A stretch of 64,000 nt of DNA, taken from contig NC_088712.1 in the NCBI RefSeq assembly GCF_963576615.1, forward strand, positions 15,026,027-15,090,026, given 5' to 3'. Both the position numbers and the translations under genes were made by a program. Source of the stretch: Watersipora subatra. Taxonomy: Eukaryota > Bryozoa > Gymnolaemata > Cheilostomatida > Watersiporidae. Below are positions 940 through 54,157 of the stretch, in pieces. The notes beneath the pieces were generated by a model. The model saw nothing but the letters and a program-made list of their open reading frames with translations. It was not told the origin of the DNA and did not search any database. Every line of letters starts with the position of its first letter. Position 1 is the first letter of the stretch.

Positions 940-1916
940 TGTTGTGATGATTATTGATAGTATTGGATTATCCTACCAAGCAATCTTACAACAGTTAGGG
1001 AGTAAGCTCAGGTTTATTGTCACGAGCAGATGCACTGCTAAATTATTATAATAAACTCAGATAGGCCTAATCCTGATTAATGACTGTTTGAGTAGTCTGA
1101 CTTGTTCACTAATGTATCAAGATTTTACAACTGACCTTCCTAGATGTGAGAATCTAGGACTATACTCTGAGATAAGGAATAGCTAAGGTATGTGGAAGGG
1201 GTTTTCCCAAGACCTTATGTTTATTAAATGAACAAGAAAATATATAACAAGTTGTACTTCAGACTAAGAATTGTAAGAATATAAAAGTAATGTCTGAGAC
1301 TTAGAATATATTCACCCCCTTGTTCTGCGAAGGTTGACTCTTTTCACTTGTTCCGCTGACACGTCTGTCTGCTATGAAGAAGCTGTATTGAAGAGAGTGA
1401 AGTATGAAGGTGAATATACGTCCTTATATATCGTTTAGGGGTTAGCCTGGGTGTCCAAGAGTAAGCTATATCTTTCAGATCTCCAATTTTGGGTATTGTA
1501 GTTTTTGGGGTTCCTGGCTACGCCTTGTTGTATTTACGTCAGCGGGGTTTCATAATATTTAATCTTCTAGTTTTAATCCCTGTCTGGTGTAGATTGGCAC
1601 CAGATGCGGATCTTCGTACCGCATGACGAAAGTTGTTATCGTCTGGGTGTTGTCGTTGACTTGGGGTGTGATGCCGTTTTTAGGATTTTAATCTGGGCTT
1701 TAATTACTGGCTTTTTTGCCATAATCTTGAATTTTCAAATGTAACGTTCTCAATGTTCAGACAGTGGAATGGGTGGGTCGTCATGTGATGGTACTAATCT
1801 CAAGGATGAGATTTGTGGGTGTCGTAACTCTAGGAGTTTGTCTAGTGAGCCATATGATGATATAACTTGTAATTTTCTTTACGTCTATTTGTACATGGCT
1901 GATATCAGATATAACA
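940..1916 (-). repeat. 3' LTR of the retroelement
   Basis: 977 bp, aligned end to end without gaps to 14340-15316. On the element's strand it begins TGTTATATC and ends CACAACA, giving the short terminal inverted repeat TGTT...AACA. Differences from the 5' LTR fall at 993, 1318, 1353, 1365, 1420, 1598, 1627, 1655, 1698, 1745 and 1898, all transitions. Minus-strand AATAAA sites (TTTATT on plus at 1013-1018 and 1220-1225) are candidate polyadenylation signals. A short plus-strand frame at 1769-1978 overlaps the LTR edge and is probably chance. Confidence 0.95.
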
Positions 1917-2939
1917 TCCTTCACGGCTTTAAGAACATTGTCCTCAATGTAGTGAGTTCTGGTGTTGTTGGTATGTAGCTGTCATGGTGTGAGAACAAGG
2001 GGGTTTCGCAAAAAGTATAAGAGTGAAAAATTTTGATTTAATAAGAGAAAGTTTCTGGATTAATATAAAAACAAGATCCCTGGATAATGTATAGAATATA
2101 AATATGTATGGTAATATAAAAGTGTCATGAGGCATTAGTGCTATATCTAAATACTGTTATGTTGGTGTTTCTAGAATAGTGTTAATCTCCTCCTGTGGTT
2201 AAGAAGTGTGTCCTCACGCAGTAGATAGTTGGTAGGGAAAGGTGATCTTATTTGCCTCACGACAGTAAAAAAAATTAGCCATACGAGTGTTAAGCAGCGC
2301 AAACATAAACTGTCACCAATTTATAAAAAGATAGAAGAAGATAAAAAAAACTGTGTACCACATAAAATTGAAAAGTCTGATTAATAATTAATCTCGTCAA
2401 TATGTATATATTCCCTTATTTTTTTTGATCAAAAAGTTTTATTTTTTTTTTGTTTTCTTTTCGTTTTTGTTTCATCCACTGCCCAAGGTGTGGTTCTATC
2501 TTAATAATTATTCATGTATAATATTTCTAACCTATCCTACTTTAAAAAATGTCATAATATGTATACTTAGTTCTTAAACACGATAGTGGTACTATGTGCC
2601 GTCTATATGACAGGAATGTAGTTACTCTACTAAAATAGAAATATTTCTTCTTTTTTTTTTTAAAGCACATTTTTTCTTTAAAACTACCGTGGTACACGTA
2701 TAATAATGTGTCCCGTATATAAGAATTAATAATCATCATGATAAGCAATGGAACAAAAAAAATTCTAGGCACGTTTACCTGTCAAGAAAATATTCGACAT
2801 GCAGTGATTAATCATTATGATATAAATAGCATGAGATTATTCAAGTCCAATATACACAATAATTTATTATATGATTAGATATACTTACTTTAATCTCTGG
2901 TTCTTGTGGTAAGTTCGAGGTGTCAGCTTCCAGCGTCTG
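1917..2939. other. Element interior between 3' LTR and antisense gene 1
   Basis: AT-rich sequence without a convincing reading frame on either strand. The polypurine tract expected next to the 3' LTR is weak: only a short purine run (GAAGGA on the element's strand, 1917-1922) abuts the LTR. This stretch could be the sense 3' UTR and, on the plus strand, promoter or leader for the antisense genes. Confidence 0.45.
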
Positions 2940-2947
2940 TATATAAG
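2940..2947 (+). promoter_or_regulatory. TATA-like box for antisense gene 1
   Basis: TATATAAG lies 34 bp upstream of the ATG at 2981, which would place transcription start a few bases before the ATG. That ATG has a strong start context (A at -3, G at +4). The motif is common by chance in AT-rich DNA, so its position is the main argument. Confidence 0.4.
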
Positions 2948-2980
2948 TGACTTCAGCTATGAAGTAAACTCATAGCAAAC

Positions 2981-4609
2981 ATGGCCGAAGCTGATTCTAC
3001 TACTAGCAGTGATAAGTTTCTAAAAGATTTGGTGGCCGCAATGCTGGCACATGTCCGAGAGGAGCAGGATAAGCTTCGAGTGGAGTGAATATACATGTTT
3101 TGGCATTCATATTATAGTTTATATAAAAAGAATTTTCTCTTTTTTTTTTAATCAAAGGAAATTTATCATTTTCTTTGTATTTGTAGGATAGCTGTTTTAA
3201 AAGAGAAGAGAGAGGCGGGAGAGACATGGGGTTAAGGAGCGATGGAGGAAAGGTGTGTATAAGATAGAGATGCCCCGATTCTAATTTCACCAGCCGATTC
3301 AGATACCGATTCGATATACCGATTCTTAATGAAAAATAATCCGATTCAGATACCGATTCAGATTCTTTTGTGTTGCATAGATAGTTGTTCATTTGTTATG
3401 CGAGTATAAATATAATGCCAAGAAAATATAAATATTAATGCATTTATTTGTTTGTATTTATGAAAAAAGATATACATGTATATATATTCACATACTGACA
3501 TACCGTGCATCTAATAACAAAACAGTCCATGTTTCTTGAAATATGTTATTATTAATGGTAATTACAGTTAGTGGTACAGTTTTCTCTGTGGTAATGAAGT
3601 CTCTTTTCTACTGCTGAACGAACGGCTGCGCCTGTACAAGTCTAAAGCAAATAAATGCGTCTTTTAATTACCGTTAGTGATTCAATTATCTCAGTGAGAC
3701 GTCTTTATCTTCTATCACTATCGATGTAGCCCGTCGTACTGAAGGACTCGCACGCTACAGATGATGGAGGGCAGGCTAAACACCGATAAGCCACTGAGGT
3801 TATTTTATGCAATACAAACGATACATCATATCGTCAGGATCAAGAGAGAGATAGATAACTTTATGCATCAACTGCTCAAATTACTTTCGCAATGCTAGTA
3901 AATAGAAACATTACACCGCATTCTTGTTGCTCGTTATGGTTCTCTTGTTTGTGATTGGCTGCAACAAATCATATCGCTGTAATTGGGAAATACCGCACTT
4001 GGTGATTACGTCCTGACTAAAGCCAAAATATTATGCAGCTGTGTGGATGTTTATTAGGCTATAGACATGAAATATATTGTTATAAAGGCTCGGAAATCAT
4101 TAGATAAAAGCAAGGAACTTGCAGCTGATGATTTGTTATTAAAGTAGCAGGCTGAAATACAGGTTTCTGCTAAATAGTTGATATGTAAAAAGTATCTGAA
4201 GTGTCCGATTTTTTAAGAAAAGATCGGCCGATACCGATTCAGATACTTAATACCCATATCGGCACCGATACCGATTCCGATATTGAAATCGGGGCAACTC
4301 TAGTATAAGATTCTTTCATTGTAGAAGATCAAGTCATGCATGTATGTGTATATGAATGAAAATGAGGTGAATTAGCCGAAATTACCATATGTTTATGTTT
4401 TCAGTGAAAGCTCTGAGGAAACTGAGTCTGAAGAGGAGGAGGAAGGAAAAAATGTAAATTATGAAGAGGAGGAGAAACAAGAGTGTGATGAGGAGTGCCA
4501 TATGGAAGCTCTTGAAATAGGATGTTGCCCCCATGGGGCACACGTCTGTGGACACTGTGGCCACCTTACACTTATTCATCTGATATGCGAATGTGGGGGG
4601 CGCCACTAG
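2981..4609 (+). CDS. Antisense accessory gene 1: acidic, Cys/His-rich protein (2 exons)
   Basis: Exon 1 is 2981-3084 and exon 2 is 4405-4609. The intron starts GTGAAT and ends TTTTCAG, and the junction is in phase, giving about 102 residues with a stop at 4607-4609. The N-terminal third has an amphipathic helix-like segment (FLKDLVAAMLAHVREEQ). The middle is strongly acidic (runs of Glu with Ser/Thr). The C-terminus is Cys/His-rich: a C-C-x-H pair, then C-x2-C-x-H, then C-x-C, which could bind zinc. The strand is opposite to gag and pol. A hAT element (3265-4302) fills most of the intron; without it and one target copy the intron would be about 270 bp. AATAAA follows at 4741-4746. I recognise no family. 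The layout (acidic, nuclear-type, antisense, near the 3' LTR) recalls antisense regulatory genes of deltaretroviruses by position only. Confidence 0.6.
3257..3264. repeat. 8-bp target duplication of hAT element, left
   Basis: GTATAAGA here is repeated exactly at 4303-4310, immediately outside the two ends of the element at 3265-4302. Eight-base duplications are the hallmark of hAT transposases. Confidence 0.85.
3265..4302. mobile_element. Non-autonomous hAT-type element nested in the retroelement
   Basis: 1038 bp with inverted ends TAGAGATGCCCCGATT and TAGAGTTGCCCCGATT (one mismatch in 16) and the exact 8-bp duplication GTATAAGA. The subterminal regions carry many copies of CCGATTC/ACCGATTC, the kind of clustered motif bound by hAT transposases. 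No transposase reading frame is present, so it must have been moved in trans. It inserted after the retroelement was built, inside the intron of the antisense gene. Confidence 0.88.
4303..4310. repeat. 8-bp target duplication of hAT element, right
   Basis: Exact second copy of GTATAAGA, directly after the right inverted end of the hAT element. Confidence 0.85.
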
Positions 4610-4740
4610 GCATGCGCCCTCCCTTCATAAATCACAAAAAATATATATATATATCTGCCAATCATGTCTTATCTGGTATTTATCGTTTAGCATACGAATA
4701 CGCTAATCGCAAGGGATAGTACATTAGTATCATAAATGTC

Positions 4741-4746
4741 AATAAA
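4741..4746 (+). terminator. AATAAA polyadenylation signal, antisense gene 1
   Basis: AATAAA occurs 131 bp after the stop codon of antisense gene 1, on the same strand. It fits a 3' end for that transcript. The hexamer is frequent in AT-rich DNA, so support is by position. Confidence 0.4.
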
Positions 4747-5172
4747 GAGATCACATATCGGATTGCAAGTACAGATCCAAAGTAAAATCCAAGATTGCTG
4801 TTAGTTTGTAATAAATGGTTGGCTCACCAAGTTATATGGATGATATATTGCCTTCCTTGACGGTTGTCATAGTAGCGTTAATATCAGTCGATAAATCATT
4901 GTGTTCTGGCAAGTGCGTAAGTGATCTTCGTTTCCTGAGGGTCTTGGATATTATAATATCCGGTTTTCCTTTGAAACGGTAAATGTCAGTGACGAGTTAG
5001 ACGAGCTAATTTTTAAATTAGCAAATTATAGTCCAATGAAAACTCGTGTCTCTTGGGTTTAGCGCGTCATTCTTCCACGTTGTCCTCTCGCTATCATTCA
5101 TCACTGATCCGTTGAGTGTTAAAGTGTCAATTTGATCTGTTCTGTAGTAGTTTTCTGCTTTCTCTCTTCGTC

Positions 5173-5647
5173 ATGTACTTTTACCTTTTATTGATCATTG
5201 GAGCTTGTGCCGTTCCTCTGACCAGAGTGGTATGTAGAAATATTCACGTAATTATGAATAATTCTAGTCGCTGTTGAGTAGTTCTTGGCAAAAAAATTTT
5301 TTTTATCTATAGCCCTGTGATGTGGAGAGATGTACCTGTGTAGGGTACGTTGTACAGTGTACTCCTCTTCCGGTGATACTTAAGAACGTTGATCCTGTAG
5401 TTGGTGCAGAAAGAACAGAAGACAATCGAGTCACTTTTGAGACTACGTCAGATTTGCCTACCGTTATTGGTTAGTGGTATTTCCCAATTTCTTCAGTTTT
5501 GCTAGCTTCATCGGTATGCATTTTATATGTTGTGCTATGATGTCCTTTGGTATTTTAGGGCCTGATCGCTTGGGTGAGGTACTCGGCGTTGTGTCGACGT
5601 TGGTTGTTGTTGTTTTTATTTTGTTGTATTGTTGTTGTAAGAAATAA
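5173..5647 (+). CDS. Antisense accessory gene 2: small type I membrane protein (3 exons)
   Basis: Exons 5173-5229, 5313-5469 and 5559-5647, joined in phase, give about 100 residues. Introns are short (83 and 89 bp) with good borders (GTATGT...CTATAG and GTTAGT...TTTTAG). Exon 1 encodes a signal peptide (MYFYLLLIIGACA). Exon 2 encodes an ectodomain whose start has the spacing C-x4-C-x-C-x6-C, like the CxC core of VWC-type cysteine modules. Exon 3 encodes a membrane helix rich in Val/Leu/Ile, followed by a short tail with three Cys and two Lys. The intact frame across three exons, with a signal peptide at one end and an anchor at the other, is hard to obtain by chance. The gene is convergent with pol, whose stop lies 112 bp away. 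The function is unknown; a surface or secretory-pathway role is inferred from topology. Confidence 0.7.
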
Positions 5648-5648
5648 A
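5643..5648 (+). terminator. AATAAA overlapping the stop of antisense gene 2
   Basis: The TAA stop (5645-5647) is embedded in AATAAA (5643-5648), a compact 3' end typical of viral or element genes packed tightly. The integrase stop on the other strand lies at 5760. Confidence 0.5.
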
Positions 5649-5759
5649 CGTTGTTCTGTTGATTTTAACTAGGTATTTTTTATTGGGTTAGTCCAGTCCG
5701 GTGTTCGATTAAGTGTGTAGTCGTCGTCCTTTAAACTTAGGTGAGTGGGATAAGGAGAA

Positions 5760-7380
5760 TTATCCGTAATATTGGAAATCATCATTTTGTTTGGACTTCG
5801 GGTTTCTCCGGAGTTCATACCTATTACTCCTCTCTTGTTCATCTTGTTGCTTTATCTTGTTAGCTTGTTCAGGTGTAGGGTTGTCATTTTCAGTGATTTC
5901 ATTTGTGTCTGATTGCGAGTTGTCAGCTTTATTATCAGACTGTATGGGTACCTCGTTTTCTTTTTCAGAAGTGGCTCTCTGGACCTTGCATTCCCTATGA
6001 TCTGGTGTGGTAGGAGTGTTATCGTCTCCTTCCTTCGCCTTATCAATGTCGTCGTTATCAGGTGAGTCTGTAGTAATACCTTTGTCATCTGGCTCAGAAG
6101 CTTGCTTCTCGGTTAGTTGATGTTTTGCAGGTGTATATTGTGGTACTTTTCCTCGTCCACTCTCCTCGTCTGAGGAACTCAGTTCTATCGAGATGTCAGA
6201 GTGGTCTCCCCTGACCAATGGTCCGATATGTTTCTTCAGCATATTGAAATTCACTCTCGTAGGTTTTTCATCTGGTCTGTCAAAGGGTTGTATAGTTGCC
6301 GTAGTTTCGTCACGACTCTTAAGTACGTAAGCATTCTTCCACCTCTTGATTAACTTAGAGTACTTGTTGCGATATCCTCGTTTGTCATGGTAAAGCGCGT
6401 AATCGCCTACTTGCAACGTGCTGGGCGTGGCTTTCTTGTCATAATAGTGTTTTTGCTTCGCTTTTCCCTTCTTTGTTAATTCTCTTGCCTTTTCCCAAGT
6501 TTCCGTCATTCGCTCGTGTAGTTTCGCGGCGTATGAATCACTATTCACAGTAGGTGGTTCTGGCGAGGGTTTTGTTAAGTCGTAAGGTAGGCGTATTTCT
6601 CTGCACATGAGTAGAGAGCTGGGTGAGGCTTGTAATGTCGTGTGTTTTGATGAGTTATGCGCGAGTTGACAGAACGGGAGGTATCTTGGCCAATCTTTGT
6701 GAGTATCTTGATTGACGAAGTGTGAGAGCATATTCGCAATCGACTTGTTATAGATTTCGACTTGTCCGTTGCATTTTGGGTTATAACTAGTCGTGAATCT
6801 GTGTTCGACATCTAGTAGTCTGTTAACTTCTGCGATCGTCTCACTCATGAAATTCTCAGCGCGGTCGCTGAGCAGGATCTTTGAAGCTCCGTATCTGCAG
6901 AAGACTTGTTCTACATATACTCTAGCTACTGTGGTTGCGAGTTGATCTTTAGTAGCTGCCATTTCAGTCCATTTAGTGAAATGATCCGTGAACACTAATA
7001 TATGTTTCATTCCACATGTGCTTTCAGTTAGAGGTCCCTGGAAGTTCACCGAGAGGACCTCAAAGGGGCTTCTGGCCATCTGTGTGCCTAATGGTACACG
7101 TATTGGTACTTTAGGGCTTTTTCTCTGTTGACAGGAAATGCATTGGCTGATGTAGTTCTCCACTTCTCGCGCCATGGCTGGGAACCAGTTCTTTTCTCTA
7201 AGCCGCATCAGGGTCTTGGTTACTCCTGGGTGCATGGCAGTTATGCTGTTGTGAATAGAATAGAGCAAGAGTGGCCTCTGTACTGCTGGTATCGCAAGTA
7301 AGAGTTTTCCTCCTTGTTTTCGGTACAAAACTTCTGAGTGTAATTCGAAGTGGCTGCTCTCCTTGGCTATGTCTTTTTTG
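5760..7380 (-). CDS. Integrase region of pol (first catalytic Asp replaced)
   Basis: The frame is open from about 7380 to the stop at 5760; the first Met at 7328 is not the natural start, because this is part of a polyprotein. It holds the zinc-binding HHCC region (HNSITAMH, then CISC), a DDE core with D155 (SDRAENF) and E191 (QVEIYNKS) counted from that Met, 35 residues apart, and a GPY-like module (VGDYAL ... KLIKRWKNAYVL). A hydrophilic, acidic C-terminal tail of about 140 residues follows. The first catalytic Asp expected before the F-x-G-P motif is Asn (codon 7044-7046, AAC), so strand transfer should be lost in this copy. The upstream junction to RNase H is frameshifted at a 6-T run (7374-7379). 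Confidence 0.85.
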
Positions 7381-7860
7381 CGTTTTGTTTAGCGTCTTTA
7401 GGGAATTTTTCTTTCGCAATGTATCTCCAGATAGGTCCGAGATAAAAGTCTCTTTTCTGGTCATCCCTCATACTTTCGTCGATAACTGTAGTTTCTCCTG
7501 TATTCACTGTCATGATAGCTCTGGATAATGCATCCGCTACCTTGTTTTGACTTCCAGTCTTGTGTTCAACGGTGAAGTTGTAGTCCGATAGCTGAGCGGC
7601 CCATCTTGCTAAACGTGATGATAATTCGGATTTCTTCAATACGTAGGTACACGCTGCGTTGTCTGTGAACACCTTGAAAGTGACATTCATCAGATAGGGT
7701 CGGAAGGGTTTTACTGCCATCAGAATTGCGTAGAGTTCTTGTTGACATGTATCCCATTTTCTTTTAGATTGATTCAGTGTCTTGGAGAAGAAAGCTATCG
7801 GGTGTTCCTTTCCATCTGTCTGTTTCTAAGAAAGTACCCCCCCCCCCCCCCCCCCCCCCG
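7367..7860 (-). pseudogene. RNase H and connection region of pol, frame broken
   Basis: This frame gives the Gypsy-type RNase H sequence from PIAFFSKTLN through FKVFTDNAACTYV to the NKVADALSR end, so the domain lies on the minus strand between RT and integrase. It is separated from RT by a run of 23 C (7837-7859) that changes the frame, and it has an in-frame TAG at 7826-7828, one codon after the point where V-L-S is read. A shift at the T6 run (7374-7379) ends it before integrase. The homopolymer shifts may be sequencing or assembly errors. The TAG looks like a true point change. Confidence 0.75.
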
Positions 7861-8717
7861 ATGCTGACTGAAGATGCATCTGTAGTGAGGATGAAAGTCT
7901 CTTGGAAGTTCGGGAAGCAGAGAATTGGAGCTGTGGTGACGTGGGATTTCAGAGTTTGCATAGCTGTTTCACATTCAGAGTCCCAATTGAATCCGCCCTC
8001 TTTGTTGGTGAGTTTTATGATCGGTGAAGCGATTTTTGCGAAGTCCTTGATGAACATTCTGTAATAGCCGAACAATCCCATTAATCTCCTTGCTCCGGTT
8101 ATGTTCTTGGGCGCTGGGAATTTCTTTATTTTTTCTGTGTTATGTGGTGCTACTGAAATTCCTTGTTCTGAAATTATGTGGCCGAGGTAGAGTATCTCTT
8201 TCTGGCACAGTTGGCTTTTTGAAGGTCGGTATTTCAGTCCAGTGTATCTGAGTCTTGTAAACACAGTTCTTAGGAGTTGTATGCGCTCCTCAAAGGTTTT
8301 AGACGTCATGAGCCAATCGTCCAGATAAACACAGCTGCTGCCTGAGCTAATCAGTTTCGCCATTATGGCTAACGCTAGCCTCGTAAACGTAGCAGGGCTC
8401 CCTGACATTCCTTGTGGCATGGTATTGAATTGGTAGCATCCGAAAGGTGTGATAAAACCTGACTTTTCTCTTGAATCTTTATGTAGTGCTACTTGAAAAA
8501 ATCCTGAACAAAGGTCAATCGAGCTGAAATATTTCTTCTCATGCATGGTTTCTATTGCGCTGTCAATTGATGATATGGCCATTGATTGTTTTACAGTTGC
8601 GGCGTTCAGCTTGCGATAATCTACACAAAATCTCCAGTTACCATCCTTCTTCTTGACGAGTCCTACTGGAGAGGTCCACTTGCCAGAGCTAGGTGAGGTC
8701 AAACCATTGTCTTGCAT
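7764..8717 (-). CDS. Reverse transcriptase region of pol
   Basis: 317 codons in one frame. Gypsy-type RT motifs occur in order: WTSPVGLVKKKDG, WRFCVDYRKLN, SSIDLCSGFFQV, the FGCYQFNTMPQGM block, the catalytic YLDD at residues 131-134 (8316-8327), and the LGHIIS and LMGLFGYYRMFI thumb region. The frame then enters RNase H (FILTTDASS, with the first catalytic Asp) and is thrown out of frame by the 23-C run. The first Met at 8717 is internal: the domain begins upstream in another frame, so there is a 1-nt type shift between about 8717 and 8765. Confidence 0.88.
   Translation of the reverse strand: MQDNGLTSPSSGKWTSPVGLVKKKDGNWRFCVDYRKLNAATVKQSMAISSIDSAIETMHEKKYFSSIDLCSGFFQVALHKDSREKSGFITPFGCYQFNTMPQGMSGSPATFTRLALAIMAKLISSGSSCVYLDDWLMTSKTFEERIQLLRTVFTRLRYTGLKYRPSKSQLCQKEILYLGHIISEQGISVAPHNTEKIKKFPAPKNITGARRLMGLFGYYRMFIKDFAKIASPIIKLTNKEGGFNWDSECETAMQTLKSHVTTAPILCFPNFQETFILTTDASSVSIGGGGGGGGTFLETDRWKGTPDSFLLQDTESI
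7837..7859. repeat. Homopolymer run of 23 C within pol
   Basis: Twenty-three consecutive C on the plus strand (a Gly-coding G run on the pol strand), not a multiple of three, inside RNase H just after its first catalytic Asp. The domain continues in a different frame on the far side. The length is prone to replication slippage and to sequencing error. Confidence 0.9.
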
Positions 8718-9172
8718 TTGGTCAATCTGTTGTTTTCTGCTCTGATCCCGACTGGTATACCATATGGTCTGCTACGGATGGGGTCTGTCCCTGGGAGTGT
8801 CTCAACAACATGTTCTACTATGGATGTACGTCCTAGTTCCGTTATGCCTTCTCCTGCTATATCGTCAAATTCGTCCACCAGGTTTTGTAATTCAATTAGT
8901 TGAGGGGCAATCAGATTAGTATTCTTTATATCTAGCTTCGGTTTGCTCTTCTTCTTGTCAGACTCTTCCGCCTTAGTAGGTACGCTTAGTAGTCGTAGAT
9001 CATCTTCTAAGCTTTCAACGTTTCCCACCAGCGCGTTTTTAGGTATTGTATGTGCTGTAAATGTAGGATTAATCACTGGAATGATAATCTTTCCCTTCTC
9101 TACGCGTGTGGCTGATTTTCCAATTAATAGGTTTTGTCTGATATTGCGATTGCCTTCAAATAAGCATTCCTC
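8699..9172 (-). CDS. Protease-RT linker and RT N-terminus, in frame after a TGA
   Basis: This stretch continues the same frame as Gag-Env-PR directly after the TGA at 9173-9175, with the motif CLFEGNRNIRQ that normally links protease and RT in Gypsy elements. It ends in the run ETLPGTDPIRSRPYGIP, which is the usual entry to the RT fingers. After about 8765 the conserved RT sequence continues in the next frame (ORF from 8717), showing a small indel. Whether the TGA is read through or is a mutation cannot be told from one copy. Confidence 0.75.
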   Translation of the reverse strand, partial: EECLFEGNRNIRQNLLIGKSATRVEKGKIIIPVINPTFTAHTIPKNALVGNVESLEDDLRLLSVPTKAEESDKKKSKPKLDIKNTNLIAPQLIELQNLVDEFDDIAGEGITELGRTSIVEHVVETLPGTDPIRSRPYGIPVGIRAENNRLTKCKTMV

Positions 9173-12100
9173 TCAGTCTGGCATATCATAAACTTTCACT
9201 ACTATTGCCATCTCTGTAAGTGGTGCAATTTCGACATTGTTGCAGGTGCGGGCTAGTTTTATGTGACTGTTTCCACCCATTGGGAGAGGATGCCCTTCAT
9301 TGATGTTGAATGTACATCTTCTAAAATCGTAAGTTATCTTTCCTAACTTGCTCATGATATCTGTTCCAAGTATGACTGCATAAGAGATATCTTCTGCTAT
9401 GTGAAATCTATGTTTGCCGCTCCATTCTCTTCCTATTTTTACCCACATGTTTGACTGTCCAATTATGTTTAGAGCGACTTTTGTTACTCCGGTTGCGGTG
9501 AGGCTACTTGGTTGAATTTCGGTGGTCAGCGATTTAGCGAAGTCCGAGTTAATTAAACTTATTGTGGCTCCAGCATCAGCTAGTCCAGTGCACTTATGTC
9601 CATTGATCTCTAAGTTTATGGTAGCTCTTCTACAGTTTTTACTGGTTGGGCTGTTGAGAACATTGACTTGTTCTCTAAATTCTTCATTATCTTGAGGTAT
9701 TATCCCGAAGAATTCATGCCATGCTAGGGCGCATTCTTCATCTATGGTTAACTGGTTATCATCAGAAAGGACTGGTTGATAGGGAGGTGGAGCAGTTGGG
9801 TTGGTGAGAGTTGTTTCCATCGTGTTGTCTTTGTCTTCTTTATCTGTTTCAGCATATATGGCTCCCACTATCTCCGCCGCTCTTCCCCTCCTATATTTTA
9901 TGCCTCCTCCGACTGCTGCTGTGATTATGGCACCGAGAAAGAGGATAGTCGTAAAGAAGTTACAAGCAAAAGTCCACAACTCGTAGACGGAAGCGACATG
10001 TCCTCCGAACAGGAAAGAGAAGAATGATTCGCCAAACAACTTTTCTCTGCTTTCTATGGTGTTGTATTTTAATGTATTGTGGCGACTTGTGACCATGCCC
10101 ATTGAGTCTAGAACCTTCTTTTGTCTGTATAGTGTAGACAGTAATTGATTTAGATCATTGTACTGATCAGGGTCTGACCATCCTAATAAATGTATTCTGC
10201 TAAAAATGGTCTCTTTTATCTGTAATGGTTGAGTCCCAAGATTGATATCAGGGATAGTTAGGTTTGACACGGCATGTGCTGGTTCTATTCTACCATCTGG
10301 GTGGTATATTGAAATATTCCCATTAAGCATTCTCAGTGTATTTGCCATAGATTTACAACTTACTGTATAGGTGTCTGGTTTAATTACGTTTTCTTTTGGG
10401 TTGAGATATCCTATCTTTTCTGTACCAGCAATCTTCACCTTGATTGGTATGTAATTAGTGCAATTGTCTTCTTGCATAGGAAGTATCTCATACTGAATAT
10501 CACGCAAGATAGTGCATGGATAGACTTGTAGATATCCTGGTCCTGAGGTAGCGATAACATTAGGTCTATCTAGAAGATAGCGTGCGCTCAGAGTAGGGTG
10601 TTCCCCCATCAGCATGCTTACTAGTCTCAGGGTTGCTGCTAGATTCTGGCATGCATATTGATATGATGCCCAGAACAGCTTCTGTGCTAGCTTCGTTTGT
10701 TGATAGGCTAGTGCTTGGGCTATTGCATTCATTGCTGGTGCATTTTTCCCGACTGCAACCAGTGGTACTTCCAACGTGTCATTCAGAGTAGCGTTTGTTG
10801 GAGAGGTTAGAAATCTAACTACCATGCCTTGATCTGATTGGGTTAGCTCTGAACTTTCACAATCTCTGTTCACGCTTAAGCCATTCCCATAGAATGTGAG
10901 TGCCAGATCGTTATCATTGCTCACAAAGTGCGAGTCGAGATAACTCCCACTTACATTGAACCATGGGGTGTATTCGCATGTTTCTGTTAGTTCAAAATCC
11001 CATATAAGTACTGAATCATCTATCAGTTTGCAGTAGCCTTTCCTATAATTACAGTGACTTACATCTCCTACAGTGCTTTCAAATAAATAAGTGCCGTGTC
11101 GCTTGTACAAATATGTCTCGATGTAGCTGCATTGGTTAGCGTTGAAGGTGTGTTTCTTCCCGTACCACACATATTCAGCATTGGTGGGTTCGTTTGTTAT
11201 GTATATACCGTCTCCTCCGTGCAATACGCCTGCGTCGCATCTTTTGTGCTGTACCATATTGATGCATTCCGTTCTTGAGACAGATCTAGTTCGTCGTGAA
11301 ACTTCCTTGGTTTTAATGTCTCTGAGGAAAGACAACTGCGTTGTCACAGATGTGACAAACTTTGTGCATTGGTAGGCAATAGTGTGCTGTCTAACCATAT
11401 TCTTGTGGTAGATAGTGATGTTCACGTCTTGGGGTTCCATGTTCGCTAATTGGTCTTCTCGAACTGTACATTTGTAGTCTTGTTGCATTTTAAACAATTG
11501 TGGAGAGTCGTCTTCTCCTGATCCGCAAATCATCGGGTTGTTTGGTTGCCAATTGTAGCCTGACGTCCCAGTAATACAGAGGCAAAAGAGACAGAACTGC
11601 ATGTAGCTTACTATATTGAATAGACCAAACTGTCCTCCATTAAAGGTTCTTCTTGCTTTAGGTGGGGCTGGTGCAAAAGTTACGCAGTTTATTGACTCTT
11701 CGGCGTATTCTCGGTCTTTCTTAGCGTTTCTTGGCCTGATATAATTATCCTTCGGGCCTGTTTGCGCTAGATAGAATCTAGCGAACTCGCTTGGTCCCAT
11801 TTGGTCAATTTCTGCTTGGGTTATTCCGTCGCATATCTCCGCCACACTATCAGCTTGTGTGCACGATTCACAAGCGTGTACATCTTCGTTTTTGTGTCGA
11901 CTTGCGTAGCTTCCTTGTTCTCTAAAGTTCTCCGTTGTCCTGTTTCTTTGGGTTTGTGGCCAATCAGGCTGTGGAGAGTCTTCGTAATTTTTCCGGTAAT
12001 TTCCTCCAAAAGGTGATCGGGTGTAACCATTACCTGTTTGGTTGCATCGTTGTCCGCTGTTTGTCCCTTGCCAAGGTCTGTTATTCCATTTACCGCGCCT

Positions 12101-13270
12101 GTCATAGCCTCGGTTAAAATTGTCGCTGTATCTTTGTCTGTAGTTATGGCCTTGACTACCACAGTAATCGTTTCTTCCTCTTGTTTGGAAATCTCTACTA
12201 TCTGTGAGTTGATAGTTTTTTTGCTTTTGTGTTTTGGTTGATTGATTTTCGTTTATCTTCATTCTTCTAGTCTGTTCATCAACCAAATTAGTAAGCCCTT
12301 GTATTTGTTTGGTTAGCGGTGTTAATAAGTCAGCATCGACCTGATCTACATGGTCCACCTGTGTGTCCACTCGGTTTTTCACCACTGCCCTGTCAATAGC
12401 TTCTAGATTTCTGGCTTCTTTTAATGCTTGTTGTAGAGTTATGTCTCCTTGATTTAGGATGGAGCACTGGTAACTCTCTTTAAGCCCGCTGATGAAAGCT
12501 GCTTTTATAACTTGATCTCGATTGACTTCTGGCATCCCTTTGAAAACAGAACGCCCGGCCGCTATTATGTCGGCATAGAAATCATTGACTGATTTTCGTC
12601 CTTGGGAAATGCTCCGGAGGTTCTTCTCTTGTAATGGATTATCATTGAGAAAGGCTTCCAATAATTCCTGTTTCATCTTTGAATAGTCCTTCGTCCATCT
12701 TGGGTTCAACTTGATGATATTTTTGTACGTTTCCCAAGCTGCTCCAACTAGCTTTGCAGGTAAGGCTAAAGCTAATTGTTCATTGCTATGGTTATACTGT
12801 GCCATCAAGATTTCCCATCTCTCGAGGTAGTCCTCGAAATCTCCTCCTTCTTTGAAAGGTTCGATGGTGTCTAGGTTTGGCACGATACTTATGATGGGTG
12901 TGCTCCTTGTATTGGAGTTATCTGTCTGGTGTCTCCCAGATAGAGTTGCTAGCTGCGGTGGTGCACTGGGGGATGTGTGGGTCGCGGTTGCGCCCCTCCT
13001 GTTTGGTGGGAAGATAGGGCTACCACTGTCATATCTAGGTAAATGTTTTGTGAGAACTGTCGTAAGATCCGGTACGGTTCGGGGCGTCCCATTTTTAGGA
13101 GTTGCTCCTCTTTCGTCAGGGCTCTGTTCTACCGCAGTCGAGTCGAGCTCATAGTTTGTTGTACCTCCTGTTGCGCCTTCTGCTGCTTGTGAGGTTGCGT
13201 CAGATGTCTTATTTTTAGTCTTGCTCCTTGTGCTGACACCTTCTGACGTGTCTTCTTGGGAGGCTGACAT
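9173..13270 (-). CDS. Gag-Env-protease polyprotein (1365 codons, one frame)
   Basis: One uninterrupted frame holds three modules. Gag (about 1-540) has the Retrotrans_gag pattern (FEDYLERWE ... LVGAAWETYKNI ... FYADIIAAGR) and a degenerate zinc knuckle (CGSQGH at 370-375). Env-like module (about 548-1160): hydrophobic signal-like segment around 548-568 with Met557, a Cys-rich ectodomain with about seven N-glycosylation sequons, a basic RRTR site early in it, a membrane segment near 1099-1125, and a PPPY late-domain motif at 1161-1164. Protease (about 1210-1330) has D1232 in DAGA and an ILGTDIM motif. The start at 13270 is the first Met and precedes all Gag homology. In known Ty3/Gypsy and retroviral genomes env follows pol; here it splits gag from protease. 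The glycoprotein family is uncertain; chuvirus- or gB-like class III is a guess. Env might be expressed from a spliced RNA starting near Met557. Confidence 0.85.
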   Translation of the reverse strand: MSASQEDTSEGVSTRSKTKNKTSDATSQAAEGATGGTTNYELDSTAVEQSPDERGATPKNGTPRTVPDLTTVLTKHLPRYDSGSPIFPPNRRGATATHTSPSAPPQLATLSGRHQTDNSNTRSTPIISIVPNLDTIEPFKEGGDFEDYLERWEILMAQYNHSNEQLALALPAKLVGAAWETYKNIIKLNPRWTKDYSKMKQELLEAFLNDNPLQEKNLRSISQGRKSVNDFYADIIAAGRSVFKGMPEVNRDQVIKAAFISGLKESYQCSILNQGDITLQQALKEARNLEAIDRAVVKNRVDTQVDHVDQVDADLLTPLTKQIQGLTNLVDEQTRRMKINENQSTKTQKQKNYQLTDSRDFQTRGRNDYCGSQGHNYRQRYSDNFNRGYDRRGKWNNRPWQGTNSGQRCNQTGNGYTRSPFGGNYRKNYEDSPQPDWPQTQRNRTTENFREQGSYASRHKNEDVHACESCTQADSVAEICDGITQAEIDQMGPSEFARFYLAQTGPKDNYIRPRNAKKDREYAEESINCVTFAPAPPKARRTFNGGQFGLFNIVSYMQFCLFCLCITGTSGYNWQPNNPMICGSGEDDSPQLFKMQQDYKCTVREDQLANMEPQDVNITIYHKNMVRQHTIAYQCTKFVTSVTTQLSFLRDIKTKEVSRRTRSVSRTECINMVQHKRCDAGVLHGGDGIYITNEPTNAEYVWYGKKHTFNANQCSYIETYLYKRHGTYLFESTVGDVSHCNYRKGYCKLIDDSVLIWDFELTETCEYTPWFNVSGSYLDSHFVSNDNDLALTFYGNGLSVNRDCESSELTQSDQGMVVRFLTSPTNATLNDTLEVPLVAVGKNAPAMNAIAQALAYQQTKLAQKLFWASYQYACQNLAATLRLVSMLMGEHPTLSARYLLDRPNVIATSGPGYLQVYPCTILRDIQYEILPMQEDNCTNYIPIKVKIAGTEKIGYLNPKENVIKPDTYTVSCKSMANTLRMLNGNISIYHPDGRIEPAHAVSNLTIPDINLGTQPLQIKETIFSRIHLLGWSDPDQYNDLNQLLSTLYRQKKVLDSMGMVTSRHNTLKYNTIESREKLFGESFFSFLFGGHVASVYELWTFACNFFTTILFLGAIITAAVGGGIKYRRGRAAEIVGAIYAETDKEDKDNTMETTLTNPTAPPPYQPVLSDDNQLTIDEECALAWHEFFGIIPQDNEEFREQVNVLNSPTSKNCRRATINLEINGHKCTGLADAGATISLINSDFAKSLTTEIQPSSLTATGVTKVALNIIGQSNMWVKIGREWSGKHRFHIAEDISYAVILGTDIMSKLGKITYDFRRCTFNINEGHPLPMGGNSHIKLARTCNNVEIAPLTEMAIVVKVYDMPD

Positions 13271-14317
13271 GTTTGTTTTATTTTACTGTTAATCTTAGTG
13301 TGTATCAGAGTTAAAGATAACCAAATAGCAAACAAATGGTTCTTCTTGACAGATCAAAATAATACTGTGGTTAGCGTTCTTACTATACCTCTAACAATAA
13401 TATATTGTTAGGCGCTAGGTAGTAATGCTAATATATTACTTTCTATATTTAGTGTCAAGGGTGGATATTTATATGTACAAATTATGTGAATGGTGTATTC
13501 TTAATGTAATTACTCGAGCATGGGGAATTTTTGCTTTTACCCAATCAACTCTTAGTGAGGATTTAATCTGTATGTGCTTATGCTATAATAGTATTGTATT
13601 AGAGAATATAATTTAGTGAGCTCTTAGTATTATACGTGGTGTTCTACCAGCTAGATGAGAGTAAAAGATTTTTTTTTTTTCCGGACTTGCGCGCAATAAT
13701 ATCTTAATGTAGGCCTAAAATATTTAGAATATTAGTTATAGGTTTGATAGTTACCTATCTATACTAAAATTCTCGTGGCTTCCGCTTTGTCAGTTTGTTG
13801 TTAATGAGCTCAGTATTTAATCCTGTCAGGATGAAAAGTAATCATGCGCGAATAAAATTGTTCAATATGGATCTATTGTCCTTAAATGTATATGGGAGTC
13901 AAAGTCAATCGGGTACTCAAATGAGAAGTGATCTAGTCTACCACCAGGGCAGTGTAGGTCGTACGGGTGGTGTAAGATTGTAACTGTACCTTTTTACAAG
14001 AGCCTAATACTAATAAAAGCTACCGTGGCACTTCTGTATGTGCGGTGTACGACCTAGAGAGGTCGATCACTCTTGACTACTCCAGCTAGCTATCTTCTGC
14101 CAAATAATAAATTCAAAATTTTCTGTTTCAATAATTTTCTGTTTCAATTAATATGGGGAAATGGGCAGGAATAAATTTCAATAATCAATCAGTTTCAATA
14201 GTAATAATAATGACACGTGTCCTTCCCCGTCTTACAAAGAATCTTTTCCACAGATTCAAACTATTTATCAAGGATCCGTAAACGCTTTGCTAAAAAAAAT
14301 TGTGTGAGATTTGTTCA
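13271..14317 (-). other. 5' leader between PBS and Gag
   Basis: About 1 kb without convincing genes. On the element's strand the Gag start has an AAC context and lies shortly after AG sites (for example TTAACAG about 18 nt upstream), so the leader may be spliced. A 62-codon plus-strand frame at 13795-13983 has no recognisable domain. The region presumably holds packaging and splice-donor signals, which I cannot identify by eye. Confidence 0.5.
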
Positions 14318-14335
14318 AAACCCGCGTCTCCACCA
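14318..14335 (-). promoter_or_regulatory. Primer-binding-site candidate
   Basis: Four bases inside the 5' LTR the element's strand reads TGGTGGAGACGCGGGTTT. TGG is the complement of a tRNA CCA end, and on the plus strand the adjoining sequence ttcaaaacccgcg resembles a tRNA T-loop and T-stem. The tRNA identity is not assigned. Counting from the T-stem, the acceptor strand appears one base short. Confidence 0.55.
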
Positions 14336-14339
14336 GAAA

Positions 14340-15316
14340 TGTTGTGATGATTATTGATAGTATTGGATTATCCTACCAAGCAATCTTACAACGGTTAGGG
14401 AGTAAGCTCAGGTTTATTGTCACGAGCAGATGCACTGCTAAATTATTATAATAAACTCAGATAGGCCTAATCCTGATTAATGACTGTTTGAGTAGTCTGA
14501 CTTGTTCACTAATGTATCAAGATTTTACAACTGACCTTCCTAGATGTGAGAATCTAGGACTATACTCTGAGATAAGGAATAGCTAAGGTATGTGGAAGGG
14601 GTTTTCCCAAGACCTTATGTTTATTAAATGAACAAGAAAATATATAACAAGTTGTACTTCAGACTAAGAATTGTAAGAATATAAAAGTAATGTCTGAGAC
14701 TTAGAATATATTCACCCTCTTGTTCTGCGAAGGTTGACTCTTTTCACTTGTTTCGCTGACACGTTTGTCTGCTATGAAGAAGCTGTATTGAAGAGAGTGA
14801 AGTATGAAGGTGAATATACATCCTTATATATCGTTTAGGGGTTAGCCTGGGTGTCCAAGAGTAAGCTATATCTTTCAGATCTCCAATTTTGGGTATTGTA
14901 GTTTTTGGGGTTCCTGGCTACGCCTTGTTGTATTTACGTCAGCGGGGTTTCATAATATTTAATCTTCTAGTTTTAATCCCTGTCTGGTGTAGATTGGTAC
15001 CAGATGCGGATCTTCGTACCGCATGATGAAAGTTGTTATCGTCTGGGTGTTGTCATTGACTTGGGGTGTGATGCCGTTTTTAGGATTTTAATCTGGGTTT
15101 TAATTACTGGCTTTTTTGCCATAATCTTGAATTTTCAAATGTAATGTTCTCAATGTTCAGACAGTGGAATGGGTGGGTCGTCATGTGATGGTACTAATCT
15201 CAAGGATGAGATTTGTGGGTGTCGTAACTCTAGGAGTTTGTCTAGTGAGCCATATGATGATATAACTTGTAATTTTCTTTACGTCTATTTGTACATGACT
15301 GATATCAGATATAACA
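14340..15316 (-). repeat. 5' LTR of the retroelement
   Basis: Aligns without gaps to the 3' LTR at 940-1916 (offset 13400) with 11 transitions and no transversions. Ten of the eleven have C or G in the left LTR and T or A here. Minus-strand AATAAA candidates correspond to TTTATT on plus at 14413-14418 and 14620-14625. Confidence 0.95.
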
Positions 15317-15320
15317 CCTT
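15317..15320. repeat. Target-site duplication, right copy (CCTT)
   Basis: CCTT follows the last LTR base. After it the host sequence (tagattgctgtttcattgttcaag...) continues the intron, similar to 20937-20990. Confidence 0.8.
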
Positions 15321-29539: not shown

Positions 29540-32110
29540 AAACAAATTTATTAAACAGTCATTGCATGAAAAACCAGTTAGATATCTGTTTGCTTCTGCC
29601 CAACTCATAACAGTGTAAAGTATTGATTATTTTTAAGAGAGTTTTGTAATTATCTAAAAGTTGTGCTAGACAAAGCTTTAGAAGATAAATCACTCTGTCT
29701 GATAAGCATTTGGTTTGTGGCAATCGATGAGATGAGGTTGGGCTGAATCTAAAGATCTGAGGATTCCGCTCAGAAACTTTAACAGCTTCAGTGTTCATGA
29801 TACTATCAGCAATACTATTGATATAATATACACCACAAGATGATATATAACTATATCGTATGACAAATTATATGATAAAATAATATATAACAGATTTTTT
29901 GGCACCTCATACTTCATTCAATTATTTTGCAGTTTTCAATTACTCTTCATCTTTAAGAATATGAGTTAAAAATCACTCTTGCAGTAATTGCACTGTTTTG
30001 AAAAAAGAGATTCAACTCAAAAAAAAAATTTAAGATAAAATAAAACACATACATAATAGAAAAAAGGAATTACTATTACTAAAAAATTATTACTACTGAC
30101 CAACGTTTAGCGATCATAATTATTTTCTAGCTACAAAAAACCATGAAACATGATCAAAACTATAAGGTACAAGACAACAACTTTTTTTCAAAAAATTAAA
30201 AAAAGGAGCTCTATTAAAAAGAAACTTTTCAAGTGAAAAAACTTTGTACAAATTTTTGAGCTGTAGAGCTGAGACATGCAGTTTTCCATGTAGTACAAAT
30301 CAATGTTTCACTGCGAAGGGATACTTTGCTCACAGTAATTACTCAGCTTTTTAGCGCATCAGTTGGAGTAAGACAACTATCTTAAAATCGATTAGTAAGA
30401 GTTCTCTGTAGCTAAGATTAAAGATAGTTATTATACAACATTAGAGAGTATGCTCATGAAAGGCTTTTTAAGTTTTGCTAAGTAATCACTATTCCGCAAT
30501 TGCGGAAAGATTAAACATAAGTATCTTTTCATCTCGGTTAGCAAAATATAGATTTTATATGAAGTGTTTTTGTAATTATCTAAAGGGCTATTAAATAAGC
30601 TTTCAGAATGTTTAAGCTGCACATGAGGCTCATTTTATCTCATATGTGTTACCTCAAAGCCAGGAGTGTTATAAAAATGTATGATTTTTACTGTTCACAT
30701 TAATATATATATAGTGGAACTATCTTTAGACTTTCCTGACTTGTTCATATATTACTGTTACCCATTACCCCCTTACTATTATATATATAGTGGAACTATC
30801 TTTAGACTTTCCTGACTTGTTCATATATTACTGTTTGGTTTAGGTATTTGGGAGTATGGAACAGCTTTGCCAGAAGTTTTGATCAAATTCAGTTGCACTG
30901 GCTGATCTTTTAAACTTTATCCTACTGATAGATACACTGTTGTTGTTATCAAGGGTGAATATCTTATTGATGTCCTAAATGCAGTACAATAAAAAACCTA
31001 GGAAGATATCTTATGCATTTGTGTGAATGAAACTATAAAATCTATTATAAGCAAATTTCCTGGTTTTTTTCAAGTAAGTTTAGTTTTGATGCTACAAGGT
31101 TTAGAGAATTATTGCTACTGCCATAATATTAGACAATTATGCTGCAAAATAAAGAGCAATTTTTAGCCAGCAGAACGTTTAAAATTTCTTCTTTTTTGAT
31201 TATCTTTCATGTTAGTAATGTTTTACCTCTAAAACTTTCCGTTTTGCCTAAACCAATAATACAACTTTAATATTTTACCCTTTTTAGTTTTGTCATAAAA
31301 ATAAAATTATCTACACAAGCATGTTCGAATTCAAAATCAAACCTTATACTTTATAAATTCAAAGCAATCAACCAGCTTGAGCCCTATGGAGCTCAGGAAA
31401 GACTAGCCGTAACACTTTAGTATATAAGAAACAATATTTTTGGGAGCAATTCGAGTGTGTGCATTTTTGGCATCACCAACAAATCCTATAAAAAATACAC
31501 TTGGCCATATCAATGATGCTCCGGCAATATTTTCCCTAGCCAAAATTCATGATCACACCAGTGTTTGATCAAACATGAGAACTCGGTCAGAAATTCTGGC
31601 AAATGGTCACGTCAATAGGAGACTCTATGCTTCAGCATAACTACTAACTGCTGTAATGTGCAGCTGGTATACTTAACGTTTAAAAAAATTTTCATTCAAA
31701 ATTTCAAAAATTTGGAACTATATGTACAACAACTAAAAAGTATTTTACTCATACAATAGTAATTCTCCGATAAAGCTCTCATATTTCTCTGGTATGGGAA
31801 TACTGCAACAGATGCTCTATTTTTGAGAGAGTAAAACAGCAACAATCCAGCAACTCAATTCTTCAATCAGGAAGAAATTCTAAATTATTGCTCCACCACT
31901 TAAAAATTAAAAAACCATACAGGCATAAAATAAATTTTTACACAAAATCAGCCGTCTGTAAACTCCAGTTTTTTCTTTTTAAATTTTTTAGTTGTCTCAT
32001 ACGTAATTCCAGCACCGTTGTTGATATATCATCTGTAGCAGTTTGCAAAGTTGGAAAAAATACCCACGTTTGGTCATCAGAGATTAATACTAGGTTTCCA
32101 ATTCAATAAC
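29540..32110 (+). repeat. Lectin-5'-end tandem unit 1
   Basis: First of a tandem series. Shared blocks, in order: tttgcttctgcccaactcat (29589), cacagtaattactcagc (30331), the Y-rich segment near 30395-30500, tggaactatctttagac (30712), and a decayed first lectin exon at 31447-31600. It has an internal duplication of about 55 bp (30708-30760 and 30781-30836). Confidence 0.8.
31447..31600 (+). pseudogene. Decayed lectin first exon, unit 1
   Basis: The stretch gcaatt ... aaatcctataaaaaatacac ... gatgctccggcaatattttccctagcc aligns with the signal-peptide and start of the PAN-domain exon at 40115 (aaatcctcaagtaaatacat ... gaagctccaacaacgttttctcttgcc). The start codon is lost (ATG to ATT) and the frame is disrupted. 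Confidence 0.65.
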
Positions 32111-34260
32111 CACTCATTACAGTACAAACCAGCTAAATATATGTTTGCTTCTGCCCAACTCATAACAGTGTAAAGTATTGATTATTCTTATGAGAGCTTT
32201 GTAATTATCTAAAAGTTGTACTAGACAAAGCTTTAGAAAATAAACCACTCTGTCTGATAAGCATTTGGTTTGTGAGACTCGATGAGATGAGGTTGAGCTG
32301 AACCTAAAGATTTGAGGAACCCACTCAGAATTTTAAACAGCTCTTAAGTTCATAAAACTATCACTAATATTAATATATGATATACACCACAAGATGATAT
32401 AAAATTATATCGTATAACAAATTATATGATAAGATATTCTATAACAGGTTTTTTGACACCTCATACTTCATTGCAATTATTTTTCAGTTTTCAATGGGTC
32501 TTCATCTTTAAGAAAATGAGCTAAAATCACTATTGCAGTAAATGCACTGCTTTTAAAAAACAGATTCAACTCAAATAAAAAAATTAAAGTTAAATAAAAA
32601 CCCATACAGAATTGAACAAAAATTATTACTACAGACCAACGTTTAGCAATCATTATCATTTGTCTGCTACAAAAAACTATGCAAAATGGGCAAGACGATA
32701 AGGAACAAGACAACAACTTTTTTTTTAATTTAAAAAAAAGCGCTATTGAAAAAAAATTTCTCAAGTGAAAAGATTGGTACAAATTTTTGAGCTGGAAGGC
32801 TTTGACATGCAGTTATCCATGTGGTACAAATCAATGTTTTACTACGAAGGGATACTTTGCTCACAGTAATTACTCAGCATTTTAGCGCATCAGTTGTGGT
32901 AAGATCAATCTCTTAGGATCTATTTGTAGAAGTTCTTTGTAGCTAAGATTAAAGACAGTTATTATACAACACTAGAGAGTCTGCTGATAAAAGGCTTTTA
33001 AAGTTTTGCTACATGTAAGTAATCACCACTCCGCAATTGCGGAAAGATTAAACATAAGTATGTTTTTTTCATCATGGTTAGCAAAATATAGATTTTTTTA
33101 TGTCTGTGTAATTATCTAAAGTGCTATTAAATAAGCTTTCAGAAAGTTTGACCTACACATGAGGCTCATTTTATTTGATATGTGTTATCCAGGAGTGTTA
33201 TCTAAATGTATGATTTTTACTGTTCATATTAATATATATGGTGGAACTATCTTTGGAATTTCCTGACTTGTTAATCTATAATTGTTTGGTTCAGGTATTT
33301 GGAAGTATTGAACCGCTTTGTCAGAAGTTTTGATCAAATGCAGTTGCACTGGCTGAACTTTTAAACTTTATCCCACTGATAGATACACTGTTGTTGTTAT
33401 CAAGGGTGAATATCTTATTGATGTCCTAAATGCAGTACAATAAAAAAACCTAGGAAGATATCTTATGCATTTGTGTGAATGAAACTATAAAATCTATTAT
33501 AAGCAAATTTCCTGGTTTTTTTCAAGTAAGTTTAGTTTTGATGCTACAAGGTTTAGAGAATTATTGCTACTTTTAAAAGAATTTGAGTATGTGCATTTTT
33601 GCTATCACCAATAAATCTTGTAGAAAATGCATTTGGCCATTTCAATGATGCTCCAGCAATATTTTCGCTAGCCAAAATTCATGATCACACCAGTGTTTGA
33701 TCAAACATGAGAACTCAGACAGAAATTTTGTCAAATGTTCACTTCAATAGGAGACTCTATGCTTCAGCAAAACTACTAACTGCAGTGATGCGCAGTTAGT
33801 ATACATAACGTTTAAAAGATTTTTCATTGAAAAATTTGGAACAATACGTAAAACAACTAAAAAGTCTTTTACTCATACAATAGTATTTTTCCGATAAAGC
33901 TTTCATATTTCTCTGGTATGGAAAGACAGCAACAGATGCTCTATTTTTGAGAGAGTAAAACAGCAACACTCCAGCAACTCAATTCTTCAATCAGGAAAAA
34001 ATTCTGAATTATTGCTCCACCACTTAAAAATTAAAAAAAAATTTAGAGGCATAAATTAAATTTTTACAAGAGATCAGCCGTCTGTAAACTCCAGCTTTTT
34101 CTTTTTAAATTTTTTACTGTAGTTGTCTCACAACTAACTGCAGCACCGTGTTTGATATATCATCTGTAGCAATTTGCAAAGTTGGAAAAAATACCCACGT
34201 TCGATCATCAGAGATGAATACTAGGTTTCCTATTCAATAACCACTCATTACAGTACAAAC
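32111..34260 (+). repeat. Lectin-5'-end tandem unit 2
   Basis: Same block order as unit 1 (anchor at 32143, cacagtaattactcagc near 32861, decayed exon near 33580). It lacks about 310 bp present in unit 1 between the attattgctact block and the exon. A stretch of about 220 bp (33368-33571) is almost identical to unit 1 although the rest differs much more. Confidence 0.8.
33580..33745 (+). pseudogene. Decayed lectin first exon, unit 2
   Basis: Aligns to the unit 1 pseudo-exon (caccaataaatcttgtagaaaatgcat ... gatgctccagcaatattttcgctagcc) and through it to the exon at 40115. No start codon at the homologous position; frame not maintained. Confidence 0.6.
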
Positions 34261-38860: not shown

Positions 38861-40114
38861 ACAAACAAGCTGAAGTTTTAACTACAAAAATGATTAGATA
38901 TGCAAAACATTGAAGCACAGAGTAAAAATTTTTTTAAAAATATTATTAAGCAAGAGCTGTGGAAAAAGTTTTTTGGTACCAAAAATTTGAAAATAAAGTT
39001 ATGAGCCATTATGGCTTTGCCATGCAGTTTTCCAAGTAATATAAATGAATGTGTTACGAAGATATGATACATTCACTCACAGTAATTACTTTGGTTTTCT
39101 CAATACATTTGTTACAGTGGTAAGAGCACTCTCGTAAGATCCATTTGTAAGAGTTTTACGCAGATGAGATTAAAAATAGTTATTATACAACATTAGAGCG
39201 TCTGCTGATGAAACCTTTTTTAAATATTGCTAAGTAGTCACCACTCCACAACTGCTAGAATATTACATATTAGTATTTTCATCTTCTCAGTTAGCAAAAT
39301 ATGGGTTCTTATAAAATATTTTCATAATTATGTAAAGTGCTTTTAAATACATACTTGAAGGGTAAAAGTATAATTTGATGGTTGTGTTAATCAGTCTGCA
39401 TTATTTCAAAATCAGGAATATCATGCAAACATATGATTTTCAGCTTTCAATATACATTTCATAATATTCTTTCTTTTGACTGTATTGTTTAACAATTTGG
39501 CAACTTGGAACAGACTGGCCAGAAGTTTCTGATAAAGTAGAGGTAAAACTGGTTGAAAACCATCTAACTTTACTAGTCATCACTATCTAGTTAGTTGATA
39601 GATAGATGCATTATAGAAATTAGCAAAAGTAAAGAACTTTTTAAATTACCAAATATTACTATGGTTAAAAGCTTATCTATAACATGAATGAAGCTATGAA
39701 ATCCATTTTTCGCAATTTTTTGGCTTGATTAGAGTTAGTTTTGGTTACGGTTACTAAAATTAGAGCATAACAACCTTCAGCACAAGTTAAGAAAACTATT
39801 TCTAATATAGACAGCCATTTTAAGGATTATTTGATTTCAAACCTTTTCATTTTGCTTAATTTTACCTTTTAAATACTTTAGTAATAATTCACATCTTAAG
39901 TTGTTGGTTTTAACAAACTGTCAATATCAACTTAATCATTTTTTCATTTTCTTTCACCATAAAAAAAAGTTATTTTTGCCTGTATTGTTAAATTCAAGTT
40001 TAGGTTTGATGCAAAAGATTAAAACTAATAAGACAAAAGTTGCACCGGGCAGCTTAATAAGTGTTAGTTAATGCAACATTTGATTATCAAAGAAATAATC
40101 TTCTCTTTGCAGCA
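38861..40114 (+). promoter_or_regulatory. Upstream block of intact lectin gene (tandem unit 4)
   Basis: Shares the unit's block order (cacagtaattactttggttttc at 39077, aagagcactctcgtaagatcc, gaacagactggccagaagttt) directly before the intact first exon. The sequence aatcttctctttgcag before the ATG at 40115 looks like a splice acceptor, and unit copies keep GTAAGT/GTTAGT sites in the matching upstream position. The gene may therefore have a 5' non-coding exon in this block. Confidence 0.45.
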
Positions 40115-54130: not shown

Positions 54131-54157
54131 TGAAGCATTGCTCAATCATGCTTACAG

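Follow-up and report, generated by a model that had tools for sequence, protein, structure and literature searches.

How an envelope gene comes to lie between gag and protease, within one open reading frame (ORF), is the question raised by a long terminal repeat (LTR) element in a 64,000-nucleotide stretch of the genome of the bryozoan Watersipora subatra (contig NC_088712.1; the whole stretch is called the window below, and all positions are window positions). The retroviral rule is the order gag-pol-env, with env made from a spliced RNA. Here a minus-strand frame passes from Gag through a signal-like segment, a glycoprotein (Env), a membrane segment and PTAP/PPPY motifs to an aspartic protease (PR), and it sits inside a 14.4-kb LTR element on the same strand that has a complete LTR pair and a target-site duplication. 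We consider it probable that the element, here in a decayed copy, belongs to a Ty3/gypsy-type lineage with env, in which a class III fusogen forms an in-frame extension of Gag, ahead of PR and Pol, in a rubella-like precursor. The parts of the frame are as follows (P0001–P0008 are the related proteins described below).

9173–13270, minus strand: Gag-Env-PR open frame, 1365 codons, no stop.
11636–13270, minus strand: Gag part, residues 1–545, with Retrotrans_gag at 173–265; homologous to P0001–P0003.
11546–11635, minus strand: internal signal-like segment, residues 546–575; a similar segment in 6/6 members that span the Gag-Env junction.
9983–11545, minus strand: Env ectodomain, residues 576–1096, with 14 Cys; class III by its relatives.
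9893–9982, minus strand: membrane segment, residues 1097–1126 (about).
9746–9892, minus strand: Env tail, residues 1127–1175, with overlapping PTAP/PPPY at 9779–9799 (residues 1158–1164).
9341–9628, minus strand: aspartic protease, residues 1215–1310, by Pfam; 44% identical to P0008.

The initial annotation had described an uninterrupted frame at this place, and this was borne out; the chance of 1365 open codons at the base composition of the window is about 1e-44 (simple independent-base estimate). The Gag domain (PF03732, residues 173–265) fell just short of its cut-off of 24.1 bits when the whole frame was scanned (23.7 bits) and passed it, at 27 bits, when the Gag half was scanned by itself; the hydrophobic stretch of the frame spans residues 546–571, and a gag-type aspartic protease (PF13975) was found over its cut-off at residues 1218–1307.

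A search with the Env part returned three proteins among 6533 candidates (P0001, 1332 amino acids, 48% identity; P0002, 1305 amino acids, 45%; P0003, 1229 amino acids, 44%), each of which holds Gag and Env within one ORF. Their alignment to the window gave 32–43% identity in Gag (residues 130–300) and 45–50% over 518–520 residues of the ectodomain. Four further relatives were retrieved by a profile search among 7226 candidates: P0004 (693 amino acids) starts in the last part of Gag, which only the alignment identifies, and continues into Env; P0007 (594 amino acids) is 96% identical to the window across Gag and the junction and stops early in Env; P0005 and P0006 start within Env and are uninformative on the junction. 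Scans of viral contigs and of genome contigs found no relative. Gag sequence is joined in frame to Env in all five relatives that span the junction (P0001–P0004 and P0007), or in six of six members with the window counted. Because Gag and Env share a frame in each of these five, the sequences support the conclusion that the joining of Env to Gag ahead of PR-Pol is not an accident of the window copy.

The initial annotation had further placed Env between Gag and PR in a single frame. This stands for the window, and the Gag-Env frame stands for the five relatives, but the passage of the frame through PR is not general. The Env ORFs of P0001–P0004 end 78–133 residues past their best membrane stretch and that of P0005 ends similarly; P0006 and P0007 break off before the Env tail and are silent on the end of the ORF. 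Among the copies seen, continuation into PR is particular to the window copy, the five tail-bearing relatives (P0001–P0005) ending after the tail. A search with the PR part returned one protein among 600 candidates, P0008 (1281 amino acids), which is an uninterrupted ORF of PR, reverse transcriptase (RT), RNase H and integrase (IN), separate from Env, that stops after integrase. No Pol was found among these 600 candidates for P0001–P0003 or P0005, which may reflect the limit of the search. P0008 lies on a 7353-base contig that agrees in length and source with the longest contig of P0004, and the two very probably share one contig.

The ectodomain had initially been called Cys-rich, with about seven glycosylation sequons. 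Every member of alignment A5 has all of the 14 window ectodomain Cys that its sequence covers, and one neighbouring Cys pair is present in the six relatives of A5 and missing from the window. Seven sequons are present, but their number is not above chance (shuffled sequences have 5.15 in the mean, and 25.5% of the 5000 have at least 7), so the sequons alone are weak support. No Pfam family matched the window Env part directly, and a sequence search of solved structures with Env returned nothing credible. In P0002, Env matched the Pfam family Monjiviricetes_fusion (PF24664) at 36.4 bits (cut-off 27; expectation value (E) 2e-9). A first structure prediction, from the window Env and three relatives, was too poor to be used (predicted local distance difference test score (pLDDT) 35.1), and the fold evidence comes from a model of P0004, not of the window protein. 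This model gave fold matches to herpesvirus glycoprotein B (gB), rhabdovirus G and nyami- and chu-like glycoproteins, with 9–17% identity among the matches listed. By the profile on P0002 and the fold of the P0004 model the Env family appears to be of class III type, and the ectodomain of the window itself looks like a viral-type class III fusion glycoprotein as predicted from those relatives; the initial proposal of a glycoprotein ectodomain, for which structure prediction had been named as a check, is supported, the P0004 model being of low confidence. Entomopoxvirus proteins make up four of the best 50 viral fold matches of the P0004 model, and three of these four are uncharacterized.

At the junction, all six spanning members have a stretch of net charge +3 to +7 followed by a 13-residue core of mean hydropathy 1.98–2.42. 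In P0001–P0003 this signal core lies clearly above the hydropathy maximum of Gag (1.02–1.49). An ad hoc pattern written for the residues upstream of the signal occurs in two of five relatives, and nothing is claimed from it. The topology first put forward, with Gag in the cytosol, the ectodomain in the lumen and PR-Pol in the cytosol, fits the charges and the hydrophobic segments.

Behind the membrane segment, three motifs occur in the Env tail: P[TS]AP (window, P0002, P0003), PPPY (window, P0001) and YPxL (all five relatives with a visible tail, P0001–P0005). PTAP/PSAP, PPPY and YPxL are motifs that we take to be late domains, YPxL being alternatively a tyrosine sorting signal; PSAP is also present once in the window Gag. 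Near the C-terminus of the tail, WPSxY is conserved in four of the five tail-bearing relatives (P0002–P0005).

From these features a rubella-like route of expression can be proposed. Translation of unspliced RNA would give a joint Gag-Env precursor, within which the internal signal segment would start translocation of Env into the endoplasmic reticulum (ER). After the cut by signal peptidase, Gag would remain on the cytosolic side of the membrane, anchored by the signal at its C-terminus as in rubella capsid-E2, and PR would later trim this anchor from Gag. The Env tail, with PTAP/PSAP, PPPY and YPxL, would recruit budding or sorting factors. Pol would be made behind the tail, in frame in the window copy before its breaks and by some step in the relatives, and would thereby reach the particle via Env, not via Gag. 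Such a scheme would need no spliced env RNA, would fix Gag and Env at one to one and would hold PR and Pol in the cytosol behind the Env tail. The full scheme, in which the lineage produces its capsid and spike together in a single polyprotein inserted into the membrane during translation, signal peptidase and not splicing divides Gag from a class III fusogen acquired by capture, budding motifs sit in the Env tail and Pol is carried into particles behind that tail, is on our analysis about an even bet.

The alternative that survives best is splicing, in which Env would come from a spliced RNA with Gag as a mere leader and Gag-Pol from an RNA without Env, the shared frame being a splice fusion or incidental. 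Retroviral env is made from spliced RNA, and the window frame enters PR without a stop, which would permit an in-frame removal of Env; in P0001–P0003, however, the ORF ends after the Env tail, and removal of Env alone would not reach PR in the same frame. The junction is moreover open and in frame in each of the five relatives that span it, where even one 80-codon linker would be so by chance with a probability of about 0.0009, and the upstream Met falls at no shared position among the junction-spanning members, which leaves no common start for an independent Env. Splicing is disfavoured because the common frame is conserved and a shared start is lacking, and we regard it as unlikely.

If instead the signal segment stayed uncut, Gag-Env would be a double-sided membrane protein tying capsid to spike in the particle. 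The signal-like segments are long and hydrophobic, and the residues after the core are TSG in the window and P0007, without Ala at the expected cut, but in P0001–P0004 the segment ends in small residues, as cut signals typically do (ANA, SEA, SCA and TPA, read by eye), and an uncleaved anchor appears distinctly improbable. A rearrangement or an assembly error at one locus, as the decay of the window copy in pol might suggest, is hardly credible as the source of the fusion given the same arrangement in other records at 44–48% identity, a second record 96% identical over the junction, and intact LTRs and target-site duplication.

Several points weigh against the proposed precursor divided by signal peptidase, or against parts of it. 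The signal cores of the window (1.98) and of P0007 (2.00) barely exceed the top Gag stretch (1.73), and the Env tail of the window is without YPxL. PF24664 was found in one of the four Env members scanned, not in the window, and scans of whole-length P0002 did not show it. The fold model is that of a relative, P0004, with a mean pLDDT of 48.8, a predicted template modelling score (pTM) of 0.29 and a whole-chain root mean square deviation near 35 Å. The co-location of P0004 and P0008 is suggested by equal contig size. Synthesis of so long a chain, threaded through the membrane as one piece, may be inefficient, and the support as a whole comes from sequence and predicted structure.

The boundaries of the element and the stretches outside its coding part are these.

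15317–15320, strand not applicable: CCTT copy of the target-site duplication next to the 5′ LTR.
14340–15316, minus strand: 5′ LTR, 977 bp, TG...CA.
13271–14339, minus strand: leader from the 5′ LTR to the Gag-Env ORF, 1069 bp.
1917–5759, minus strand: stretch from integrase to the 3′ LTR, without a second Env (tblastn with P0001–P0008, E 1e-3).
940–1916, minus strand: 3′ LTR, 977 bp, direct repeat of the 5′ LTR, TG...CA.
936–939, strand not applicable: CCTT copy of the target-site duplication next to the 3′ LTR.

The two LTRs differ at 11 positions, by transitions only, and five of the 11 coincide with a CpG in one of the two copies. Scanning one LTR for bacterial-type promoters was uninformative for the element. 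An Env behind integrase had been named initially as an observation that would speak against the proposed order; tblastn of P0001–P0008 against the window matched Env at one place only, with nothing at E 1e-3 in the stretch behind integrase or elsewhere in the window outside the ORF. This 3.8-kb stretch is without a recognised gene, contains short GGTATCGG-like repeat runs near 3290–4300, and is perhaps a nested insertion.

The Pol of this copy is in pieces.

8699–9172, minus strand: PR-RT linker ORF, which follows an in-frame stop.
7764–8771, minus strand: reverse transcriptase ORF, by Pfam; 72% identical to P0008 over 292 residues.
7367–7825, minus strand: RNase H ORF, in a different frame, by Pfam.
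5760–7388, minus strand: integrase ORF, by Pfam.

These pieces are broken by the in-frame stop and by frame changes, and the window copy is decayed in pol. Some residues kept in the relatives are altered in its Env and integrase. Since pol is broken and conserved Env and integrase residues are changed, the copy is not expected to function alone.

Outside the element, a Pfam scan of nine other window ORFs gave matches in three. These are host-type exons (40061–40486, 42179–42583 and 53995–54351, all on the plus strand), with one PAN domain that passed its cut-off and, below threshold, two F5/8-type (galactose-binding) matches, which suggests a lectin-like gene family of an animal host. A tRNA-Lys (CTT) was found at 55352–55424 on the plus strand by ARAGORN and Rfam, and large diverged direct repeats (about 84–95% alike) occupy 29545–34586 on the plus strand.

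A conserved Gag-Env fusion before Pol would be another route to an enveloped retroelement, with the fusogen added onto the end of Gag, and it raises the testable question of how Pol enters particles when Env, not Gag, precedes it. With it, a Ty3-type lineage would join the elements that carry a monjiviricete-like fusogen of class III. Annotation that seeks env solely after pol would miss such elements.

Among known systems, the Pol stands near Ty3/gypsy by matches to solved structures, the only structures compared: among 12 such matches of the window RT, that to Ty3 RT ranked first (E 1.2e-50), Ty3-G was the best match of P0008 (E 5.2e-101), and Ty3 was the best match of the window integrase. 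Two other groups were considered and ruled out, the Troyka superfamily (CG...CG termini, 3-bp target-site duplication and no env, as given in the available part of PMC12440569) by the TG...CA termini, the 4-bp duplication and the Env, and the Kuafuorterviruses (IADD, VADD or LADD instead of YXDD in RT, in the excerpt of PMC11673190) by YLDD in both the window RT and P0008. Shared with Ty3/gypsy elements (Metaviridae) are the order PR-RT-RNase H-IN, seen in P0008 and in the window pieces, the TG...CA LTRs and the 4-bp target-site duplication, within the range of 4–6 bp stated in the same part of PMC12440569. The difference is the place of Env, here between Gag and PR within the Gag frame, whereas env-like ORFs lie downstream of pol in the LTR elements described in the accessible text of PMC5408684, and likewise in Roo, Tas and Cer-7 in the available sections of PMC7642597. 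Searches of the open-access literature on such elements listed none with env between gag and pol.

Capture of a monjiviricete-type glycoprotein by an LTR element would be shared with Anakin, a mosquito Pao element that carries a chuvirus glycoprotein (same sections of PMC7642597); Anakin is BEL/Pao, whereas the window element is Ty3-like, and the available portion of a later survey (PMC10084718) reports that neither Gypsy nor Copia elements have clearly captured a jingchuvirus glycoprotein. The Env resembles the glycoproteins of Monjiviricetes (rhabdo-, nyami- and chu-like) and herpesvirus gB in the profile found on P0002 and in the fold of the P0004 model, and differs from them in being fused to Gag within an LTR element. 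Rubella is an unrelated RNA virus, and here PR and RT stand behind the glycoprotein; the likeness is one of mechanism only. In rubella, according to the excerpt of PMC11481484, signal peptidase releases the capsid, which retains the E2 signal at its C-terminus and gains membrane binding from it. If the proposed route holds, the element would share with the rubella capsid-E2-E1 polyprotein a capsid, an internal signal and a glycoprotein made as one chain on the ER.

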